A model generated the notes under the pieces. That model worked only from the letters and a program-made list of their open reading frames with translations. It did no database searches and had not been told where the DNA came from. From positions 1 through 64,000 of the forward strand of contig CADBHB010000006.1 in assembly GCA_902794395.1 (NCBI GenBank): a DNA stretch of 64,000 nt, written 5' to 3'. This stretch comes from an uncultured Ruminococcus sp. Its GTDB lineage: Bacteria; Bacillota; Clostridia; Oscillospirales; Acutalibacteraceae. A program made the position numbers and the translations under genes. The first letter of the stretch is position 1. The number at the start of each line of letters is the position of its first letter. This document shows, in pieces, positions 4,535 through 56,488 of the stretch.

Positions 4535-6154
4535 TCAGCTCTTTGTACAGAGGACGACTGATGATAACGCGGGCAGCTTGAGCTTGCCGTCTTTAACGGC
4601 GGGAACATCCGCTTTCGCGGTTTGTCCGAAGAACAGCGCGACCTGCGGATCCTTCATCATTTCATCGGTGACGGTCAATGATTTTTCATCATCGGCGCTG
4701 AAATTGTGGATGACAAGCAGCTTGCTGCCCTCATGCTCGATGAAGTAGGCTCCCACAGCGCTGTCGTTGAAGCTGCACTGCGAGGTTATTCTGCCGCGCG
4801 CTATCGCGGGATAGCTGAGCTTGGCGGAAATCAGCGCCCGATAGTGGTTGAGCAGAGAGTTTTCGTCTGTGAGTTGCTGCTTTACACCGCCGTATTTCGG
4901 CTCAATGCTGGTTTTCTCGCCCTCGACGGAGATCGCCTGCGGATTATCGCTGTCGAAAACCATCGGCATGCGGTGATAGCGGTCGCTGCCGTTTTTGTCC
5001 GACTTCATGCCGATCTCCTCGCCGTAGTAGGTGAAGGAATTGCCCGGGACCAACATGTAGACGTTAGCGGCAAATTTTTCAGCCTCCAGACCCCTGCCCT
5101 CGAGCGCGTTCGCTATGCGCGTCTGGTCGTGGTTTGACAGGAAGACCGCGTTTATAAAATCGGATTTTACCTCGCTCATCTTGCTGTCGTAGCCCGAGAT
5201 CTTCTTTGCCAGTGACTGTCCCTCCGTAGTGGAAATAGACTGGACTATCTCACCCGTGCTCTGAGCAAAGCGGAACGCGAACAGGCTGTCGATGCCGCTG
5301 GCGTAATATTCCTTGATCTCGGAATCGTCCGACCAGTCCTCTCCGACGAGATATACGTCATCCTTAAGCTCGTGGCAGGTGTTGACGAACCAGGTCAGAA
5401 ACTCCACGCCGTCCGTGTGCTTGTTTTCAAAGTACTTCACCGCGTCGAGGCGGAAGCCGTCAACGCCGCGATCCAGCCAGAACTTAGCTATCTTTTTAAA
5501 CTCCTCCCGCGTTTTATCCGAGGAAAGGTTCCACTCGGGCATAGTTTCGGAGAAATTCGCCTCGCAGACATAGTCGCCGACATGGACCACCTTTGTATCC
5601 GCGGAGTAATAATCAGGCTCGTGGAACTCGAAGTACTGCGCGTCGCCGTCGAGCTTGCCGCGCTGCACCTCTTCGCAGGCGTTCAGGAAGAGCGGGTTTT
5701 TATAGGAAATATGATTAAGCACCAAATCGAGGATGATGTTGATGCCGCGGTTGTGGCACTCCTCTACCAGACGGTCGAAGTCGTCGATAGTACCGAACGA
5801 GGAATCGACATTGTAGTAGTCCTCCACGCTGTATTTGTGGTAGGATTCCGAGGGGGTGATTGGCGTCAGCCAAATTCCGTCGACGCCCAGATCCTCGCCG
5901 CCGGCGGGGTCGCCGTCGTTGAGGTAATCAAGGTGTTCGATGATACCCTGAAAATCACCCACGCCGTCGTTGTTGGAATCGGCGAAGGACTGGGTAAATA
6001 TCTGGTAAAAGTTGCGGTAATTATCGGTGGACGCCACCGGATCCGGAAGCTTTAGCTCCGTTTTAGCAGATTTTTTCTGTCCGGTGTCGCAGCCGGTCAG
6101 CACGCCGCCGCACAACAGAAGAGCGCACAATAATAATGAAAGTGTTTTTTTCAT
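4535..6154 (-). CDS. GH13 alpha-amylase family lipoprotein
   Basis: A 539-residue surface-anchored glycosidase of the alpha-amylase superfamily. The N-terminus MKKTLSLLLCALLLC ends in a lipobox (LTGC), so it is exported and lipidated. The four GH13 signatures are present: DLVLNHISY, GFRLDAVKYF (nucleophile Asp), LVGEDWSDD (acid/base Glu) and FLSNHDQTR (third Asp). The start is ATG 6154, with GGGGAAAGG upstream; a longer frame to 6217 is unlikely because it would add 21 residues before the signal peptide. It is the last gene of the maltodextrin operon and probably trims starch oligosaccharides outside the membrane for the importer. The exact substrate (alpha-amylase or oligo-1,6-glucosidase type) cannot be read from the motifs alone. 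Confidence 0.92.
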   Translation of the reverse strand: MKKTLSLLLCALLLCGGVLTGCDTGQKKSAKTELKLPDPVASTDNYRNFYQIFTQSFADSNNDGVGDFQGIIEHLDYLNDGDPAGGEDLGVDGIWLTPITPSESYHKYSVEDYYNVDSSFGTIDDFDRLVEECHNRGINIILDLVLNHISYKNPLFLNACEEVQRGKLDGDAQYFEFHEPDYYSADTKVVHVGDYVCEANFSETMPEWNLSSDKTREEFKKIAKFWLDRGVDGFRLDAVKYFENKHTDGVEFLTWFVNTCHELKDDVYLVGEDWSDDSEIKEYYASGIDSLFAFRFAQSTGEIVQSISTTEGQSLAKKISGYDSKMSEVKSDFINAVFLSNHDQTRIANALEGRGLEAEKFAANVYMLVPGNSFTYYGEEIGMKSDKNGSDRYHRMPMVFDSDNPQAISVEGEKTSIEPKYGGVKQQLTDENSLLNHYRALISAKLSYPAIARGRITSQCSFNDSAVGAYFIEHEGSKLLVIHNFSADDEKSLTVTDEMMKDPQVALFFGQTAKADVPAVKDGKLKLPALSSVVLCTKS

Positions 6155-6243: not shown

Positions 6244-7122
6244 TTAACCCTTTACGCCGCCGGCGGTAACGCCTTCTACATAGTACTTCTGCATCTTCAA
6301 GAAGAGCAGGGTGATGGGAACCGCGACTACCACGGAACCGGCGAGGAACTGCTGATAGTAGGTGGTCTTGAAGTTGATGTCGATCATCTTCTGCAGACCG
6401 ATAGCTACCGTGTAGTTGTTGAACTTGTCGCCCATGATGATCTTAGCCAGAATAAAGTCTGTCCACGGACCGATGAACGAGGTCAATACGGTGTAAACAA
6501 CGATAGGCTTAGACATCGGGAGAATGATTTTCCAGAAGATCTGGTTTTTGGTTGCGCCGTCAATGGTCGCCGCTTCGTCGAGGGCGCGCGGGATGGTGTC
6601 GAAGAAGCCCTTGGAGATCTGGAAGCCCAGACCCGCGCCGCAGCTGTAGCAGAGAACCAAAGATACCAGCTGGCCGTTAAGACCCATGATCTTCAGCAGG
6701 TAATACATGGCGATCATGGTCATGAAGCCGGGGAACATACCGAGGATCATGGCAATGTTCATCAAAGTTTTACGGATGCCGAAACGCAGGCGGCTGAACG
6801 TATAACTTACCATGAGAACCGAGAGAGTGGAGATTACGCAGCTGCAAGCCGCGACCACAAGTGTGTTGAGGAACCAACGGGGGAAGTACAGGGAAGCCTG
6901 AACGTCCGCATTGGAGGAAGTTCCCGAGAACAGGTCGATGTAGTTTCTGAAGGTGAACTGTCTGGGAAGAATGTATCCGTTGCCGACGGGAGCGCCGTCC
7001 AGTCGGAAGGAGTGGAGCACCAGGTATGCAAAGGGCAATACCCAAATGATACACATGACGCCGAGGATCAGGTAGATGATACCGTTCGCAAGACCTCTTC
7101 TGAATTTATAGCTTTTTATCAT
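6244..7122 (-). CDS. Maltodextrin ABC transporter permease, MalG-like
   Basis: A 292-residue inner-membrane permease of the MalFG/CUT1 family with about six transmembrane helices. The EAA motif that docks the ATPase appears as EAATIDGATKNQIFWKIILP in the cytoplasmic loop near residue 190. It begins MIKSYKFRRGLANGIIYLIL and its ATG overlaps the malF stop by 4 nt (7119-7122), implying translational coupling. No MsmX-type ATPase is encoded here, so the importer must borrow one from elsewhere, as is common for CUT1 systems in Firmicutes. Confidence 0.94.
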   Translation of the reverse strand: MIKSYKFRRGLANGIIYLILGVMCIIWVLPFAYLVLHSFRLDGAPVGNGYILPRQFTFRNYIDLFSGTSSNADVQASLYFPRWFLNTLVVAACSCVISTLSVLMVSYTFSRLRFGIRKTLMNIAMILGMFPGFMTMIAMYYLLKIMGLNGQLVSLVLCYSCGAGLGFQISKGFFDTIPRALDEAATIDGATKNQIFWKIILPMSKPIVVYTVLTSFIGPWTDFILAKIIMGDKFNNYTVAIGLQKMIDINFKTTYYQQFLAGSVVVAVPITLLFLKMQKYYVEGVTAGGVKG

Positions 7123-8621
7123 GAGAACGCCTCCTCATCCTTCATAGACTTAGAATTGTTGTAGATAATCAGCGACAGGGTCGCGCAGATGACGAATACC
7201 AAGATACCGATTGCCGAGGCAAGACCGTAGTCTTTCTCCTGACCCATTGACAGGTTGTACAGCCATGTTACAAGGATGTCGGTGTAGCCCGCGTTGAAGT
7301 AGTTAGCGTTGTCGGGCTTACCGCCTGTCAGCAGGAAGATAACGTTGAAGTTATTGATGTTACCGACAAACTGCGTGATAAGCTGCGGGGTTGTAACGAA
7401 GATCATGTAAGGAAGGGTGATCTTGGTAAATGCCTGAACGGGTGAAGCGCCGTCGATACGGGCGGATTCGTAAAGGTCCTCCGGAATGTTCATCAAGATA
7501 CCGGACATTGAGAGGATGGTGTAAGGAATACCTACCCAGCAGTTGACGATGATTACCGTCAGACGCGCTACCCACGGCTGACCGCCGAGGAAGTTTACGT
7601 GCGGGTTGACGCCGCCGTTGAAGTGAGCGAGAAGCATGTTGAACGCACCGTCGTGCTCAGCCAGGATCTGGCTCATGAGCAGCAGGGATACGAACTGGGG
7701 AACCGCGATGGTGATAACGAACATGGTTCTGAAAACGCCCTTGAGCTTGATGCCCTTCTTGTTTATCATCAGAGCGACGATCAAACCGAGAATGTAGTTG
7801 GAGAAGGTAGCCGCGACCGCCCAGATAAGCGTCCAGCCCGCGATACCGAAGAAGGTCCTCGCTTTTCTGGCGTTATCTATGACGTTGAGCAGGTTTCCGA
7901 AGTTTTGCATGCCCACCCAGTCAAACAGGACGTTGTGCTTGTCGCCGTCGTAGTTGGTAAAGGCGATCAAGATCATAAAGATCAGCGGCAGGATGTTGAA
8001 TATCGAGATCATCAGGATCGGGAAGGAAAGGAGGGTGATGTGATACTTACCATCCAAAAATTCCTTCGCGTCTTCCTTGAGGCCGGTGGGCTTTTCGCCG
8101 TTAGCTCTCATTACCTGATGGCGATATGCGTCCTTGATGTTGGAGATGTAGATAGCGAAAACAACGATGGTAACAACGATGGTCAGGGTAGCATAAAGCA
8201 GGATCTGCATCGAGTTGTGACCCTGAACAACGTAGGTGTCGCCGTATTCATCTTCGAGCTGCTGCTGCTTGAGGAAGCCAAGCGAGGGAAGCAGATACAT
8301 CTGTTTTCCGCCGAAGAATACCATAAAGAGGACGTACAGCACTTCCACCAGGAAGAACAGTATTCCCTTGTAGTATTTACCCTTATGGAAATCACCGGCA
8401 CCGAAAACAAAATAAGAAAGTTTTGTTGCCCAGTCACCTTTAACAAAGGTGGTACCGTAGTTTTTGAAGCCTTTGCCTATGCCGACAAAGAAGTGAACAA
8501 TTGCCAGACCGAGACCCTTGAAGAACCGGGAAAGCGCTCCGGGCAGATTTTTGAAGAACTTCTTAAAGTTAAAGGCAAATCTCTGTAACGGATTGAGCTG
8601 TTTATATTCAACGTAAGTCAT
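7119..8621 (-). CDS. Maltodextrin ABC transporter permease, MalF-like
   Basis: A 500-residue permease. It is longer than usual because of an N-terminal extension of about 190 residues with two or three extra hydrophobic segments (such as YKGILFFLVEVLYVLFMVFF) before the conserved core. The EAA loop is present as ESARIDGASPVQAFTKITLP near residue 400. ATG 8621 is preceded by AAAGGAG. It overlaps malG by 4 nt and lies 180 nt after malE, the gap holding an internal promoter-like element and two sets of inverted repeats. It forms the membrane channel with MalG. Confidence 0.94.
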   Translation of the reverse strand: MTYVEYKQLNPLQRFAFNFKKFFKNLPGALSRFFKGLGLAIVHFFVGIGKGFKNYGTTFVKGDWATKLSYFVFGAGDFHKGKYYKGILFFLVEVLYVLFMVFFGGKQMYLLPSLGFLKQQQLEDEYGDTYVVQGHNSMQILLYATLTIVVTIVVFAIYISNIKDAYRHQVMRANGEKPTGLKEDAKEFLDGKYHITLLSFPILMISIFNILPLIFMILIAFTNYDGDKHNVLFDWVGMQNFGNLLNVIDNARKARTFFGIAGWTLIWAVAATFSNYILGLIVALMINKKGIKLKGVFRTMFVITIAVPQFVSLLLMSQILAEHDGAFNMLLAHFNGGVNPHVNFLGGQPWVARLTVIIVNCWVGIPYTILSMSGILMNIPEDLYESARIDGASPVQAFTKITLPYMIFVTTPQLITQFVGNINNFNVIFLLTGGKPDNANYFNAGYTDILVTWLYNLSMGQEKDYGLASAIGILVFVICATLSLIIYNNSKSMKDEEAFS

Positions 8622-50602: not shown

Positions 50603-52210
50603 TCAAAGCTTTCGTTCCGTTTCTTTATTATATTTTTGTTCCTCAATGGCTGCCGTGACTATATCGCCGATCACGTTGATGATGTTTTGGAGCCAGCCGA
50701 AAAACACTTCGGCAAAAATAGCGATGAGTATCAGCTCATCAGCCTTTAAATACAGTGTGATGATAAGTATGCCTATCATTATCGAGCCCGGCTGGTTGGG
50801 CGCGCCGACAGAGAGGAACAGAATAAGGAAGGCTATGCCGATGATCTGTAACCACGAAATCTCTATACCAAGCAGAAAGATGAAGCTCATCGAGATAAGC
50901 ATTATCAAAAAGCAGTTTCCGTCAAGGTTGGTCTGAGCGAGTATCGGCAGATTTTCCGAGAGCCTCTTTCTGTCGTAACCGTATTTGCGCGAGCAGTATC
51001 TGATATTAAACGGAACCGCGTCGATCACGGAGCTGATTTTAAAATTCTCCCACAGCAGCGCGGGCAGATACTTTACAAAGGGCTTGATTTTTACTTTGCC
51101 GATGATAAGGCGTACCAGATAAAACGCAGATATGACGAACATACTCAGCGCGATAATAATAAGCAGCTTTAATATGATCATCAGGTTGTCTATGCCGTCG
51201 ATCATCAGCATTGAAAGAGCCGTGAAAAAGCAGAAGAACGGCAGTGTGAACATAACGACGGTCAGCATTTTAGAGAACAGCTCTAAACTGATATTGATGA
51301 ATCTGTGCACCGCGCCGAAGTACTCCCCGATTGAACATAACGCGTAAGTAAGAAGCAGAGCTAAAATAATGATAGGGAACGGCATGATCGTTTCAAACGG
51401 TTCAAATATGTTGCTCGGAACCAGCGAGTTGATGAACTCGGTCAAATTCATACCGCTTGAGAGCAAGCCTATGTTTCCCAAAGAGCCCTGATGCGAATAT
51501 AAAATATCCGCAATGAGGGGCCCCGTGACAAGCGCGAGTATTACCGCAATAAAAGAAGTGACGATCGTTTTTATTTGCAGCTTTCTTGCGGAGGAGTTTT
51601 TTTCCGAAAGGATATAGATGTCTGTCAGATTTTTGACAAGAGAGAAGAACGTGACCGGAGCGCCTATCATCAGCATTGCGTTTGCGAACTGCTTTATTAA
51701 AGGCTGAATAAGGTTATTATCGAGCGATATTAATTTGTCAGCGCTTACGAAATTAATCAGCGCTATGCTGACCGGCACGGCAAGAAGGATAGCGATAAAG
51801 CAGTAAACAAGAGAGCTGTTGTTATTTCTTTTGACAACGATGCTGACGCGGTTATAGCCCAGGCGGTATCGGTAGCCCACCTTGTCGCTGTAAGCCTCAA
51901 CTATCTGCAGCTCGGGCGAAATGCTTTTTTGATCCTTTTTCATGCTCGGGATATATGTTTCGCCCTCAAAGCCGAGAGTGACAGTATATTCGCCGAAGCT
52001 CTTCCGTACCTTTACGGTCAGTATTGTGTCCTGACCATAGCCCTGTTCTATCATATCCTGAAACAAAGCCTCAAACAGCAGCATCGTCTCAAAAGCGTTT
52101 CTTTCGTCGATTCGTTTTTGCATCAGCCATTGCTTAATGAATTGATCGGCGGTCTCATAGCTTTCCTGTTTTAGCGGTATCTCTACGGAGCGTGTTTTAA
52201 CCGAGCTCAT
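50603..52210 (-). CDS. Dicarboxylate/amino-acid symporter with N-terminal RsbW-like domain
   Basis: A 535-residue two-part protein. From about residue 133 it is a sodium:dicarboxylate (SDF) symporter with about eight membrane helices (PLIKQFANAMLMIGAPVTFF; SVGAPNQPGSIMI near the re-entrant loop). Residues 1-130 are soluble. They resemble by eye the RsbW-type GHKL fold (FIKQWLMQKRI ... LLFEALFQDMIEQGYG ... YTVTLGFEGETYIP), but the N-box Asn, DNG and GLG boxes are absent. It thus looks like a kinase-dead RsbW-like domain. An intact RsbW, STAS and PP2C set lies divergently at 54.1-56.5 kb. I infer that a STAS protein may bind and gate this transporter. Confidence 0.75.
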   Translation of the reverse strand: MSSVKTRSVEIPLKQESYETADQFIKQWLMQKRIDERNAFETMLLFEALFQDMIEQGYGQDTILTVKVRKSFGEYTVTLGFEGETYIPSMKKDQKSISPELQIVEAYSDKVGYRYRLGYNRVSIVVKRNNNSSLVYCFIAILLAVPVSIALINFVSADKLISLDNNLIQPLIKQFANAMLMIGAPVTFFSLVKNLTDIYILSEKNSSARKLQIKTIVTSFIAVILALVTGPLIADILYSHQGSLGNIGLLSSGMNLTEFINSLVPSNIFEPFETIMPFPIIILALLLTYALCSIGEYFGAVHRFINISLELFSKMLTVVMFTLPFFCFFTALSMLMIDGIDNLMIILKLLIIIALSMFVISAFYLVRLIIGKVKIKPFVKYLPALLWENFKISSVIDAVPFNIRYCSRKYGYDRKRLSENLPILAQTNLDGNCFLIMLISMSFIFLLGIEISWLQIIGIAFLILFLSVGAPNQPGSIMIGILIITLYLKADELILIAIFAEVFFGWLQNIINVIGDIVTAAIEEQKYNKETERKL

Positions 52211-52241: not shown

Positions 52242-52973
52242 TCAGCCGTTTCCCTGTTCAACTTCCTTGATCTCGGACTTTGACGCGTTTTTCAGAGAGT
52301 ATGTATCGAACGCAGCGTCGTTCGGAAGCTGAATGTCTATCCTGTCCATCTTTTGCATAAGACATGTTCCCGAGCTCATAGCCGCCCCGAAAACATGACC
52401 GCCGAACTTTTTGTCCTTTGACAGGAAGTGCATGTGCCATCCCGAAGCGTTTATGCCGTCCATATAATCGGGGAAATACACGCATACGAGCGTGCCGTAC
52501 AGCCCCTCAAAGCAAAAGTCCTTCTGCGTTTTTGAAAGGATATTTTTCAGGGAAACGTGCTGCGAGCGATACGGCGCTCCGGCGCGCGCGTGTATTTTTT
52601 CAAACCATCCGTCTATACGCGCTATATGTATGCTGTTCAGGCTAAAATCAAGATCTATGCTCAGGGTCAGTTCCAGTTTGATCGCTTCTATATCATTCAT
52701 ATCTTCCATATTAATGATTTTGCCGTCTTTTAAGGACCCCGCTACGGCAAAAGGCACGCCCGCGTCATCTTCCGCCCGAACAACGCTTCCGTCATCCTTC
52801 GCCTGATAGCACACGCCGTCCAGGATGATCATTTCGCCGTCAACGTGTTCAAACGTACCGAGTCCTATATCGCCGTTTTCAAGCAGTTCCCCGACCGTGA
52901 CGACCGGCTTTGTATATCCCAGCGCCAAAGCCTGCAACGTGGAAGCCTGATATAATTTGTTTGATTTCTTCAT
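52242..52973 (-). CDS. Alpha-acetolactate decarboxylase, cytoplasmic
   Basis: A 243-residue enzyme that converts 2-acetolactate to acetoin. Family features: STLQALALGY near the start, ELLENGDIGLGTFEHVDGEM, LDGVCYQAKDDG and the zinc site GWHMHFLSKDKKFGGHVFG with its His residues. No signal peptide. It follows its lipoprotein paralogue by 2 nt, so the pair is coupled. The product acetoin is a fermentation overflow product. The substrate source (acetolactate synthase) is not in the window. Confidence 0.9.
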   Translation of the reverse strand: MKKSNKLYQASTLQALALGYTKPVVTVGELLENGDIGLGTFEHVDGEMIILDGVCYQAKDDGSVVRAEDDAGVPFAVAGSLKDGKIINMEDMNDIEAIKLELTLSIDLDFSLNSIHIARIDGWFEKIHARAGAPYRSQHVSLKNILSKTQKDFCFEGLYGTLVCVYFPDYMDGINASGWHMHFLSKDKKFGGHVFGAAMSSGTCLMQKMDRIDIQLPNDAAFDTYSLKNASKSEIKEVEQGNG

Positions 52974-52975
52974 TG

Positions 52976-53842
52976 TTATTCCTCGTTTGTTTCAACTTTT
53001 TTGATCGCACCGCTGACGTCCTTTGAAAGCTCCATTTTCTGGAAATCACCGTTATCCGTCAGGCACATGTCAAATTCGGGCGTAGCGTCATACTCCGCCG
53101 TTGCTTTGGCGAATTGAAGGTCAAGCAAATGACCGCCTTTCGTTTTGTCGTCGGAGATGAAGTGGAAATGCCAGCCGGGGGTGTTCAGACCGTTCATATA
53201 ATCGGGGCAGTACAGAGCTACGACAGTACCGGCGATGTTGTCATAGTTAAATTCCCTCTGGTCTGTTTCAAGAGCCTTGTCGAGCGTCTTATACGGCTTT
53301 TCCTGCTTTAATTCGCTGCGCACGTTCATCTTCTCGAATGTGCCGCTCATTTTTACAAAGTAGAAAAGGTTTTTGCCGTTTTGCTCGACAATCTCGTTGA
53401 GCTTTTCTTTTAAGGCGTTGACGTCATTGATGTTTGAAAGCTCCGTGCTGCCGTCCTTGTCAAAGAAGGTCACGTTGGAGAACGGAACGGTCTCGTCGTC
53501 AGCCGCAGTCTGCACCGTACCGTCGCCGAGCGCCTGATACACCGTGCCGTCAAGCACTATCATCTCGCCGTTGACGCCCTCAAAAGTGCCTATACCGATG
53601 TCGCCGTGCTGCCTGAGCTCGCTTACCTTGATAATGCCGTCATAGTAACCCTGCGTCAGCGATTGCAAAAGGGCGACCTGATAAATGGTTTCTCTGTCGG
53701 TTTCAGCCTGCGCGCCTGTGTTTTCGGGCTGTTCGCTTTTGGTTTCAGCCTGTCCGCCGTTTTTTTCGGACTGCTGCGAGGAACATGCCGCCAGAGGTAC
53801 CGCCAGTGCCGCCGCTAAAAGAATAGCTAAGATTTTTTTCAT
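52976..53842 (-). CDS. Alpha-acetolactate decarboxylase, lipoprotein form
   Basis: A 288-residue paralogue carrying a lipoprotein signal (MKKILAILLAAALAVPLAAC) and a Ser/Gln/Glu-rich linker before the catalytic domain. The domain has LLQSLTQGYYDG, HGDIGIGTFEGVNGEM and the zinc site GWHFHFISDDKTKGGHLL. ATG 53842 has AAGGAAAT; a frame 31 codons longer adds non-signal sequence and is rejected. It is anchored outside the membrane, where acetolactate can form or leak. First gene of the seven-gene operon. Confidence 0.9.
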   Translation of the reverse strand: MKKILAILLAAALAVPLAACSSQQSEKNGGQAETKSEQPENTGAQAETDRETIYQVALLQSLTQGYYDGIIKVSELRQHGDIGIGTFEGVNGEMIVLDGTVYQALGDGTVQTAADDETVPFSNVTFFDKDGSTELSNINDVNALKEKLNEIVEQNGKNLFYFVKMSGTFEKMNVRSELKQEKPYKTLDKALETDQREFNYDNIAGTVVALYCPDYMNGLNTPGWHFHFISDDKTKGGHLLDLQFAKATAEYDATPEFDMCLTDNGDFQKMELSKDVSGAIKKVETNEE

Positions 53843-53924
53843 TTTTATTTCCTTCTTTCCAAAAGACACATTATCTCTGCACAAGCAGTTTGGTGCCCAT
53901 GCTTTTGTGCCTTTTACGATTACT

Positions 53925-54024
53925 ATTATACACAAAAACTATACAAAAAAACAATATATTTTTAAAAGATTTCGTTGCTTTTTTAAAACTTACTCTTGGA
54001 TTTTAAAAAAACATGTAGTATAAT
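53925..54024. promoter_or_regulatory. Divergent promoters between the AldC operon and the STAS operon
   Basis: Minus: TTGTTT (53949-53954), 18-nt spacer, TATAAT (53925-53930) for the decarboxylase operon. Plus: TTGGAT (53996-54001), 17-nt spacer, TATAAT (54019-54024) for the STAS operon. The two -35 boxes are about 40 bp apart, room for one shared regulator. Confidence 0.75.
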
Positions 54025-54102: not shown

Positions 54103-54459
54103 ATGGCATTATTCGGTAAAAAGGACAAAAAGCCCGCCGCGAATCTGAGCGGTAAAAGCCGCTTGGATATCAAGGTGAAAAAAGACGGAGCAGAATACAC
54201 ATTCCTGCTTGAGGGAAGACTTGACACGATAACATCTCCCGACCTCGAAGCCAAGATCAATGAAGCAACCGGCGACGCGTCCAAGCTCATTCTTGACTTT
54301 GCCAAGCTGGACTACATCTCCAGCGCGGGACTGCGCGTCCTGCTCGGCGCGACACAGGCAATGGACGGCAAGGGAGACATGGTCGTGCGCAACCCCACTC
54401 AGCCTGTGCGCGAGGTGTTCGACCTCACCGGCTTCAGCAATTTGTTCAACATCGAATAA
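54103..54459 (+). CDS. STAS-domain anti-sigma-factor antagonist
   Basis: A 118-residue STAS protein of the SpoIIAA/RsbV type. After a lysine-rich N-terminal stretch (KKDKKPAANLSGK) the domain has LEGRLDTITSPDLEAKI, LILDFAKLDYISSAGLRVLL with the phospho-acceptor Ser in SSAGLR, and VREVFDLTGFSNLF. It is the first gene of the module with a PP2C phosphatase and an RsbW-like kinase. In the known systems the unphosphorylated form binds the kinase. No sigma factor lies alongside. Confidence 0.92.
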   Translation: MALFGKKDKKPAANLSGKSRLDIKVKKDGAEYTFLLEGRLDTITSPDLEAKINEATGDASKLILDFAKLDYISSAGLRVLLGATQAMDGKGDMVVRNPTQPVREVFDLTGFSNLFNIE

Positions 54460-54554: not shown

Positions 54555-56078
54555 ATGATCAGGAAATTGAAAGATATTAAATTATACGGATTGATTTTTA
54601 CCGTTTTATCAACCCTTTTTGTTATAGCACTCAGCGCCCCTTTTTTTATCGAAGAGAGGCTGCAGCCGTATCTTTATAACGCAGGCATAGATTCTATGGG
54701 TGCGCTTATTTGCGCGGCGCTGTTTTACGGTTGTATGAGACAGGATGGAAGCGGAATAAAGCACTTCAGGCTCCTTATCATTTCGGTATGCGCGAGCTTT
54801 GTAGTTAATGAATTGATTTCTTATTCCGTGCTCGTGCCGGATTATCGCACGTGGTGTTTTGTTCTTTGTCTGTTGAGCAAGCTCATCGACCTTGCAATGA
54901 TCTTCCTTTTCTATCTGTATGTAAGAGAAACGCTCGGCTTTGAGGGCAAGCTCGCCAAATTCGCGTATATACTTATCCCCATCCTGTTGATCGTTCAAAC
55001 GCTCATAACGCTTGGCAATATCATCACACCGGTCACCTATTTGATCACCGCCGACGGTATGTATCAGAATACGGCGGCTTACTTGATCGAGGAAATTTTC
55101 CTCGCTGCGACGTCCGTTCTTACCACCGTACTTGTGCTTGCGTCGCACAACCCCGTCAGCCAGAAGGCGGCTGCCCTGATGTTCATCTTTTTACCGCTTA
55201 TCGAATACGGCATCATCGGCGGCAGCTTCGGCGAGGCCAGCCAGTACGGCATCGTTTTGATGTCGCTGATCATCATGTACTGCGTCATTTCCAATTACAA
55301 GAGCAGAAAGCTTGCGGCAACAGAAACCGAGCTCAATATGGCTACCGAGATACAGGTCGGCAGCCTGCCTACGACCTTTCCGGATCGACCGGAGTTTGAG
55401 CTCTACGCTTCCATGGATCCGGCAAAGGAGGTCGGCGGAGATTTCTATGACTTCTTTATGATCGACGACGATCATCTCGCGATAGTTATAGCGGACGTGT
55501 CCGGCAAGGGCGTTCCCGCGGCGCTGTTTATGATGTCCTCGAAGATCTATATTAACGACCATGCTAATATAGGCGGCTCTCCGGCAGAGATACTCGGAAG
55601 AGTCAACAAGCTGGTCTGCGCGAATAACAATGCTCATATGTTTGTGACGGTTTGGCTGGGCATCCTCGAGATCAGCACCGGCAAGTTCACCTCCGCGAGC
55701 GCCGGCCATGAGTATCCGATGATAAACACGAGCGGCAAATACGAGATACTGAAGGACAAGCACGGTCTGGCGATCGGCGCGTTTGATATATCCAAGTATA
55801 AAAACACCGAGATACAGCTCAAGAAGGGCGACAGTATCTTTGTCTACACCGACGGCGTTGCCGAGGCGACAGACGCAAACAACGAGATGTTCGGCACAGA
55901 CCGCACCGTTGACGCCCTTAACGCTATTCCTAAGGGCGCTTCGCAGAAGGATGTGCTGGCGGGCGTGCGCGCCGCAGTTGACGCTTTTGTTAAAGACGCG
56001 CCTCAGTTTGACGACCTTACAATGGTCGGACTGAAATACAACGGTCCCGCTGATAACGCTGCAACAGAGGAACAATGA
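54555..56078 (+). CDS. Membrane PP2C/SpoIIE-type phosphatase
   Basis: A 507-residue protein. Residues about 10-250 hold seven or so membrane helices; residues about 265-500 hold a PP2C SpoIIE domain: LNMATEIQVGSLPTTFPDRP, the metal Asp in EVGGDFYDFF, IADVSGKGVPAALFM, SAGHEYPM, and DGVAEATDANNEMFG with QFDDLTMVGLKY. It should dephosphorylate the STAS protein, sensing a signal through the membrane part. Its stop overlaps the kinase start by 4 nt. Confidence 0.92.
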   Translation: MIRKLKDIKLYGLIFTVLSTLFVIALSAPFFIEERLQPYLYNAGIDSMGALICAALFYGCMRQDGSGIKHFRLLIISVCASFVVNELISYSVLVPDYRTWCFVLCLLSKLIDLAMIFLFYLYVRETLGFEGKLAKFAYILIPILLIVQTLITLGNIITPVTYLITADGMYQNTAAYLIEEIFLAATSVLTTVLVLASHNPVSQKAAALMFIFLPLIEYGIIGGSFGEASQYGIVLMSLIIMYCVISNYKSRKLAATETELNMATEIQVGSLPTTFPDRPEFELYASMDPAKEVGGDFYDFFMIDDDHLAIVIADVSGKGVPAALFMMSSKIYINDHANIGGSPAEILGRVNKLVCANNNAHMFVTVWLGILEISTGKFTSASAGHEYPMINTSGKYEILKDKHGLAIGAFDISKYKNTEIQLKKGDSIFVYTDGVAEATDANNEMFGTDRTVDALNAIPKGASQKDVLAGVRAAVDAFVKDAPQFDDLTMVGLKYNGPADNAATEEQ

Positions 56079-56488
56079 TGAGGGAACTTATTATTGAAGC
56101 CGACAGAATGAATCTCCCTGAGGTACAGATGTTTATCGACGAACAGCTCGAAGAAGCCGGCTGCCCGATGCTGACGCAGATATCAATAGATGTTGCCGTT
56201 GAGGAGCTTTTCGTCAACATCGCAAGCTACGCCTACGGTGACGGGCACGGAAAAGCAGTGGTTCAGGTAAGTGTGCATGAGGAGCCGCTTTCGGTTGAGA
56301 TAACCTTTATCGACAACGGCGTGCAGTATGATCCTCTCGCAAAGGCTGACCCCGACACCGCACTTTCCGCTAAGGAGCGTAAAAAGGGCGGCCTCGGCAT
56401 CTTTATGGTCAAGAATACCATGGACAATGTAAGCTATGAGTACAAGGACGGAAAAAACATCCTGACGATTAAGAAGAATCTGAATTGA
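56075..56488 (+). CDS. RsbW-like serine kinase / anti-sigma factor
   Basis: A 137-residue GHKL kinase. The ATP-site boxes are intact: N box AVEELFVNIASYAYG, G1/D box FIDNGVQYDPL, G2 box KGGLGIFMVKNTMD. It should phosphorylate the STAS Ser and bind either it or a client. ATG 56075 (a second ATG follows immediately) overlaps the phosphatase stop. Its natural client is not an adjacent sigma factor; the decayed RsbW-like domain on the divergent symporter suggests a competing STAS partner. A terminator follows. Confidence 0.9.
   Translation: MMRELIIEADRMNLPEVQMFIDEQLEEAGCPMLTQISIDVAVEELFVNIASYAYGDGHGKAVVQVSVHEEPLSVEITFIDNGVQYDPLAKADPDTALSAKERKKGGLGIFMVKNTMDNVSYEYKDGKNILTIKKNLN

Follow-up and report, generated by a model that had tools for sequence, protein, structure and literature searches.

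The window analysed here, a stretch of 64,000 nucleotides from an uncultured Ruminococcus sp. (genome of 2.2 Mb in 51 contigs, with a single SDF match), carries on its minus strand an open reading frame (ORF; 50603..52210) for a protein of 535 amino acids in which an N-terminal domain (residues 1-130; 51821..52210) is fused to the membrane domain of an SDF transporter (glutamate/dicarboxylate carrier family; residues 131-535; 50603..51820). By sequence and model, the N-terminal domain is a degenerate RsbW/SpoIIAB-like domain (GHKL, HATPase_c_2-type) devoid of ATP boxes, hereafter pseudo-RsbW. On the plus strand, divergent from the SDF side and starting 1.9 kb from the start of the SDF gene, lie three further genes. 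The first encodes a STAS protein of the RsbV/SpoIIAA kind (54103..54459; Pfam STAS E 4e-14, TIGR00377 above cut-off) with the phospho-serine region YISSAGLRVL, and is preceded by a promoter-like TTGGAT-17-TATAAT and an AGGAGGA ribosome site, both judged by eye. It is followed by the gene of a PP2C/SpoIIE phosphatase (54555..56078; Pfam SpoIIE at residues 304-495, E 1e-44), which is probably membrane-bound, to judge by eye from its N-terminal hydrophobic region, and by that of an intact RsbW-like serine kinase (56075..56488; Pfam HATPase_c_2 6e-22) with the N box, DNG and GGLG all present. By family matches and motifs, these three proteins make up a set of partner-switching components.

Partner switching is a classic control of sigma factors, in which RsbW-type kinases bind and phosphorylate STAS proteins and PP2C phosphatases reverse this. 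An earlier prediction for this DNA (the original prediction) held that here such a switch could act on a transporter rather than on a sigma factor. Our analysis inclines us, with some reserve, to a similar reading, in which a partner switch independent of sigma factors would have the SDF transporter with its pseudo-RsbW receiver as its output and would change transport.

The N-terminal domain and its relation to RsbW

In the AlphaFold2 prediction of the window SDF protein, residues 8-128 fold into a compact domain and the first long helix starts at residue 131, in agreement with the original prediction of about 130 residues ahead of the transporter. Residues 1-131 matched no Pfam family above its cut-off and no NCBIfam family, the only Pfam match being a sub-threshold one to LAIKA. 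When an alignment of the N-terminal domains of 28 relatives was compared with five RsbW-type sequences, hhalign returned a probability of 97.2, an E value of 3e-11 and a score of 66.1 over 118 aligned columns. The scores of 60 column shuffles did not exceed 16.1 and the reversed profile scored 16.35; chance does not account for the resemblance to RsbW. When query profiles were built from transporter-fused domains alone, searches of whole genomes recovered standalone RsbW proteins, the window's own RsbW among them (E 1.3e-7 and 9.3e-11). Single-sequence BLASTP of the window N-terminal domain against the window RsbW gave no alignment, so the homology is visible at the profile level only; Pfam HATPase_c_2 was weakly matched by 6 of the 28 full-length relatives (best E 0.012).

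The original prediction had proposed that structure prediction of residues 1-130 be compared with GHKL folds. The AlphaFold2 model of the isolated domain (pLDDT 84.9, pTM 0.80) has the order b-a-a-b-b-a-b-b, and the first 13 PDB matches found by Foldseek were, by title, all anti-sigma kinases (E 1.2e-5 to 3e-4, TMq 0.64-0.72): UsfX, SpoIIAB, Bacillus subtilis RsbW and the Rv1364c protein, which has RsbU and RsbW domains. The model thus has a Bergerat/GHKL fold of the anti-sigma type. On profile comparison and predicted structure, residues 1-130 are a degenerate RsbW/SpoIIAB-type GHKL domain, much as had been supposed.

The state of the ATP boxes was read from one alignment of 108 domains, from which domains shorter than 86 amino acids and identical copies were excluded. 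It includes 23 kinase-type domains, of which 13 are standalone, 6 are fused to PP2C and 4 belong to STAS-RsbW proteins. All three boxes (N-box Asn, G1 Asp, G2 GxG) are retained in 23 of 23, a result that is partly by construction for 17 of them, because these were classed by score against a kinase profile and only the other 6 by PP2C fusion. The SDF-fused class was defined by fusion alone. None of its 64 domains has a G1 Asp, none has GxG at G2, 7 have the N-box Asn, and no domain has all boxes; a glycine of G1 is retained in 61 and the Asn of the last hairpin in all 64. GxG is likewise absent from the ABC-length rows (10) and the MATE-length rows (7), with a G1 Asp in 2 MATE rows; these labels come from ORF length, and Pfam confirms 5 of the 10 ABC rows and 6 of the 7 MATE rows. 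At the N box the window domain has EALFQ, and therefore Ala at the putative catalytic-base position, which we take to be four residues before the N-box Asn; further on it has FEGETYIP, and GxG is missing. An invariant Glu as the catalytic N-box base was considered and dropped, the base position being Ala in 24 of the 64 fused domains, the window's included. Judged by these residues, the SDF-fused domain is a degenerate relative of the active RsbW/SpoIIAB kinases and not a member of them, and it is predicted not to phosphorylate the STAS protein. This agrees with the part of the original prediction that called the domain kinase-dead.

In a midpoint-rooted FastTree tree of the domains, the kinase-type domains form one clade (support 0.99), the ABC-length domains another (0.96, with three unclassified rows) and the MATE-length domains a third (0.94); the SDF-fused domains fall in three groups. 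In the aligned STAS proteins the SSAGL region is present in 34 of 36 rows, the remaining two having SSAGI and SSSGL.

The transporter domains

The membrane domain of the window protein matches the Pfam SDF family (PF00375) over its whole length (residues 138-522, profile positions 6-383 of 387; E 7e-32, 111 bits vs a cut-off of 27.9), and its solved relatives are aspartate/glutamate carriers. The residues expected of a carrier of dicarboxylates or acidic amino acids (the Asp and Arg of TM8 and NMDGT in TM7) are not those of the window protein. TM7 has NLDGN instead of NMDGT. In TM8, where we assume GltPh numbering for the position names, the D394 position is G and the R397 position is Q, and positions N401 and D405 retain their residues; in GltPh the Arg and Asp of TM8 presumably hold the carboxylate and amino group. 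Because these positions are altered, acidic amino acids or dicarboxylates are doubtful substrates, and the description of the transporter as dicarboxylate-type finds no support at these residues.

Many of the other fusions lack the TM7 Asp, and many have lost ion and substrate residues of TM8; among the plain SDF controls, proteins without the N-terminal domain, 10 of 11 have NMDGT and one has NMNGT. Because so many fusions have lost the TM7 Asp while the controls keep the motif, we allow some chance, although a rather small one, that signals flow the other way, the SDF part sensing its substrate as a slow or non-transporting transceptor and pseudo-RsbW capturing or releasing STAS for another target. 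Such a sensor would predict the same gene linkage as is described below. The window protein itself speaks against it, since it retains the N and D of TM7 and, in TM8, both the N and the D of the NxxGD motif.

A further argument against a sensor is that degenerate RsbW-like domains also occur on MATE proteins and ABC ATPases, where they are more natural as outputs. C-terminal domains of this kind were found on six Pfam-confirmed MatE proteins (L192:9619-11448, L203:8088-9944, L095:273-2036, L197:8311-10113, L202:2198-3946 and L204:7624-9420), and a STAS, PP2C or RsbW gene is present in the fetched stretch of each of them except L204. They were also found, again C-terminally, on ABC ATPases or on a fused SBP-permease-ATPase protein at L090, L150, L151, L198 and L199 (L199:1911-3011 and 7153-8274, L198:7852-9006, L150:7640-8722, L090:9653-12382). 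Pfam HATPase_c_2 is above its cut-off on the L192 domain and below it on those of L197, L203, L204, L150, L151 and one of L199. The gene order at L203 is RsbW-STAS-MATE; at L199 it is ABC-STAS-PP2C-RsbW with another ABC gene 1.5 kb further, so that two ABC fusions flank the set. No enrichment is claimed for the MATE and ABC fusions, because part of these loci were chosen after their neighbours had been seen.

Distribution of the fusion and its neighbouring genes

The same fusion was found elsewhere, as the original prediction had suggested looking for. A whole-protein search matched 19 of 295 order-level genomes at E 1e-10, the match reaching the N-terminal domain in 7 and coming via the SDF part in 12. 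Searches with domain profiles matched 34 of 391 class-level genomes (1e-5), 16 of 398 phylum-level genomes (1e-7) and 80 of 394 order-level genomes (1e-7), tallies that include plain RsbW proteins. The fetched loci contain 63 SDF fusions, or 39 non-redundant ones after collapsing at an identity of at least 70%; SDF pieces below 350 amino acids or 60 bits (the split L046, the partial L196 and pieces of L036 and L045) were excluded, as was the control L206 (a 312-aa frame), which left 11 of the 12 fetched plain SDF controls. The 22 closer relatives are mostly Ruminococcus, Clostridiales and Clostridia, many of them from rumen or goat gut, where we take RUG in a name to mean rumen. Tandem pairs of different SDF fusions occur at L035:7935-11236 and L101:8077-11659 and suggest diversification of the transporter part. 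At L046:7998-9625 and L036:7989-9565 the fusion gene is split in two frames, by assembly error or decay. A gene upstream of the L041 fusion (L041:5519-7795) encodes a 759-aa protein that has an aerolysin-like match in Pfam and, below threshold, one to cadherin.

Neighbourhoods were read by scanning all open frames of the fetched loci. Of the 39 non-redundant fusions, 8 of which have less than 1 kb of sequence on one side, 11 have STAS, 13 PP2C and 7 RsbW within 5 kb, 14 have any of the three and 11 have at least two kinds; for all 63 fusions the figures are 18, 17, 12 and, for any, 23. None of the 11 plain SDF controls, a small set, has a STAS, PP2C or RsbW gene within 5 kb (Fisher p 0.022 at 5 kb and 0.09 at 1 kb, fusions vs controls). 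The 28 fusion-bearing genomes contain 105 STAS and 114 SpoIIE matches in 72.8 Mb, a density that leads one to expect about 0.67 of the 39 fusions to have a STAS gene within 5 kb and about 0.80 to have a PP2C gene; the binomial p is below 1e-10 and is overstated because the fusions are related to one another. The linkage of the fusions to switch genes exceeds the genome background. Contiguous runs take several forms: PP2C-SDF-STAS-RsbW at L187, STAS-SDF-PP2C-RsbW at L189, which belongs to the same family as the window, and STAS-PP2C::RsbW-SDF at L090 and L138. Further contiguous runs are SDF-STAS-RsbW (L107), STAS-SDF-PP2C (L143) and STAS-SDF-MATE fusion (L192), and L190 reads RsbW-STAS-SDF.

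GHKL anti-sigma kinases form dimers, and the N-terminal domain has the same fold as SpoIIAB. RsbW genes or domains adjoin the fusion at L187, L189, L107 and L090. The domain could on these grounds be a dimerisation or tethering module that pairs with real RsbW and brings kinase and STAS to the membrane without binding STAS itself, which we consider improbable: STAS is somewhat commoner than RsbW within 5 kb of the fusions (11 vs 7 of 39), and L143 and L192 have STAS with no RsbW match in the fetched stretch.

The contig of the transporter-linked set carries no match to sigma70 region 2 in seven of nine genomes examined, and in the other two the nearest one is about 13 kb (G1123) or 20 kb (window genome) away, so that a sigma factor as a neighbouring target was not found within 13 kb in any of the nine. 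This also argues against the SDF part as a sensor that releases STAS for another target. Five of the 28 fusion-bearing genomes (G007, G032, G1108, G1050 and G405) have exactly two STAS matches. In the first four, one STAS lies in a spoIIA-like STAS-RsbW-sigma cluster and the other inside the fusion operon, whose contig has no sigma70 match; the strong RsbW-type matches of these genomes are distributed in the same way, one in each place, G1108 having additional, weaker ones.

Proteins that combine STAS with other parts were also seen. At L033 two proteins of about 400 amino acids with a C-terminal STAS domain (4887-6152 and 6253-7464) are encoded beside the fusion, one of which carries a leucine carboxyl methyltransferase-like part. 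Proteins of 530-550 amino acids that begin with STAS and end with an intact RsbW domain are present at L148 (6526-8118), L156 (5307-6911), L157 (7705-9333) and L200 (5244-6893); they lie near STAS genes and, at three of the four loci, near PP2C genes.

On the SDF side of the window, two acetolactate-decarboxylase homologues stand in tandem (52242-53935) directly upstream of the transporter gene, all three on the same strand. The first gene of this run (52976..53935, minus strand; Pfam 5e-75, TIGR01252 above cut-off) encodes a protein with a lipoprotein-like N-terminus and is separated by 2 bp from the second (52242..52973, minus strand; Pfam 2e-60), which lies 31 bp upstream of the SDF gene. 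Such genes adjoin the fusion in 5 of the 22 closer relatives, and these neighbours are a hint at the substrate of the transporter. The pair was dropped as a system-defining feature because its linkage is confined to the window and those five loci.

The proposed switch and known systems

To judge from profiles and models, pseudo-RsbW keeps the fold of STAS-binding kinases without their ATP-binding residues. SDF N-termini are cytoplasmic. In the mechanism we propose, an RsbW kinase encoded nearby or co-transcribed would phosphorylate the STAS protein, and a PP2C phosphatase, probably membrane-bound and signal-sensing, would remove the phosphate. In one of its phosphorylation states, which the analogy of RsbV/SpoIIAA suggests to be the unphosphorylated one, the STAS protein would dock on the pseudo-RsbW domain and could thereby activate or inhibit transport. 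A phospho-signal would in this way set solute flux directly, without transcription. For the window transporter we suppose that its own STAS set, rather than another in the genome, would serve it.

Several observations weigh against such a switch. The canonical cation and substrate residues are gone from the SDF domain of many fusions, so transport by these is not assured. None of the three switch genes lies within 5 kb of 25 of the 39 non-redundant fusions, the comparison with plain SDF proteins rests on that small control set, and among the 22 closer-relative loci a STAS-bearing gene lies within about 8 kb at only five (L025, L027, L028, L033 and L035), the 17 without one including some with short flanks. 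In G405 about 100 kb separate the second STAS from the fusion that is nearest to it on the contig. The window genome has four STAS matches, with three STAS sets outside spoIIA, so the adjacent STAS need not be the partner of the transporter. Against every switch model, the genome G613 (a draft, 96% complete) has a fusion (L089), while its single STAS match is partial, SpoIIE finds no match in it and none of its RsbW-type matches is strong; its HATPase_c_2 matches do not exceed 29 bits and lie in frames of 480-630 amino acids that are probably histidine kinases. The original proposal of a partner switch on a transporter therefore stands in part: it is favoured by contiguous, sigma-free operons and opposed by the 25 unlinked fusions and by G613.

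The unlinked fusions and G613 would suit a domain that is a relic, structural or allosteric, and senses some other ligand, its linkage due only to shared ancestry or cassette transfer. We regard this as very improbable in view of a linkage above genome background, of several gene orders and of three transporter families. The partner switch acting on the transporter is the reading we prefer. Its extension, that partner switching in Bacillota has in pseudo-RsbW receivers a general class of outputs, seems to us evenly balanced; in it, one sigma-free STAS switch with its own kinase and phosphatase would directly set several unrelated transporters, SDF through an N-terminal domain and MATE and ABC through a C-terminal one, sometimes two per operon. 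These results suggest that a partner switch known for gene control could control a transporter directly. If so, sigma-free STAS switch sets would gain a testable target in membrane transport, gut and rumen bacteria would be able to set uptake or efflux post-translationally, in dependence on phosphorylation, and a route would open to the signals to which PP2C sensors respond.

An RsbW-type domain fused to a transporter was not described in the titles and abstract beginnings of the matches listed by our literature search, whose scope did not extend to most subscription papers or to any bioRxiv preprints. The portion of PMC9540692 consulted merely lists such domains in signalling proteins. In that of PMC8256260, the STAS-transporter links are those of SLC26/SulP, SypA and RbaV act on targets that are not known, and several bacterial STAS switches are without a known target.

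The N-terminal domain shares fold, order of strands and helices and profile similarity with the anti-sigma serine kinases SpoIIAB, RsbW and UsfX, whose genes often lie beside STAS and PP2C genes, as here. Unlike these, it is without N, G1 and G2 boxes, is fused to a transporter and has no sigma gene nearby in the nine genomes. The whole membrane domain matches the SDF/DAACS (SLC1-type) symporters such as DctA and the aspartate transporter 9bgz, from which the window protein differs by its extra N-terminal domain and by the replacement of the Arg and Asp of TM8. Outputs other than a neighbouring sigma factor are known from the partner switch SiaABCD. According to the same portion of PMC8256260, the SypA, RbaV and Btr switches likewise combine STAS, kinase and phosphatase with such an output, and SLC26/SulP transporters likewise carry a part that comes from the STAS/anti-sigma world. 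In SLC26/SulP it is STAS itself that is fused, whereas here the fused part is the pseudo-kinase, and STAS is a separate, apparently switchable protein; and unlike in SypA, RbaV, Btr and SiaABCD, the predicted output here is a transporter domain.
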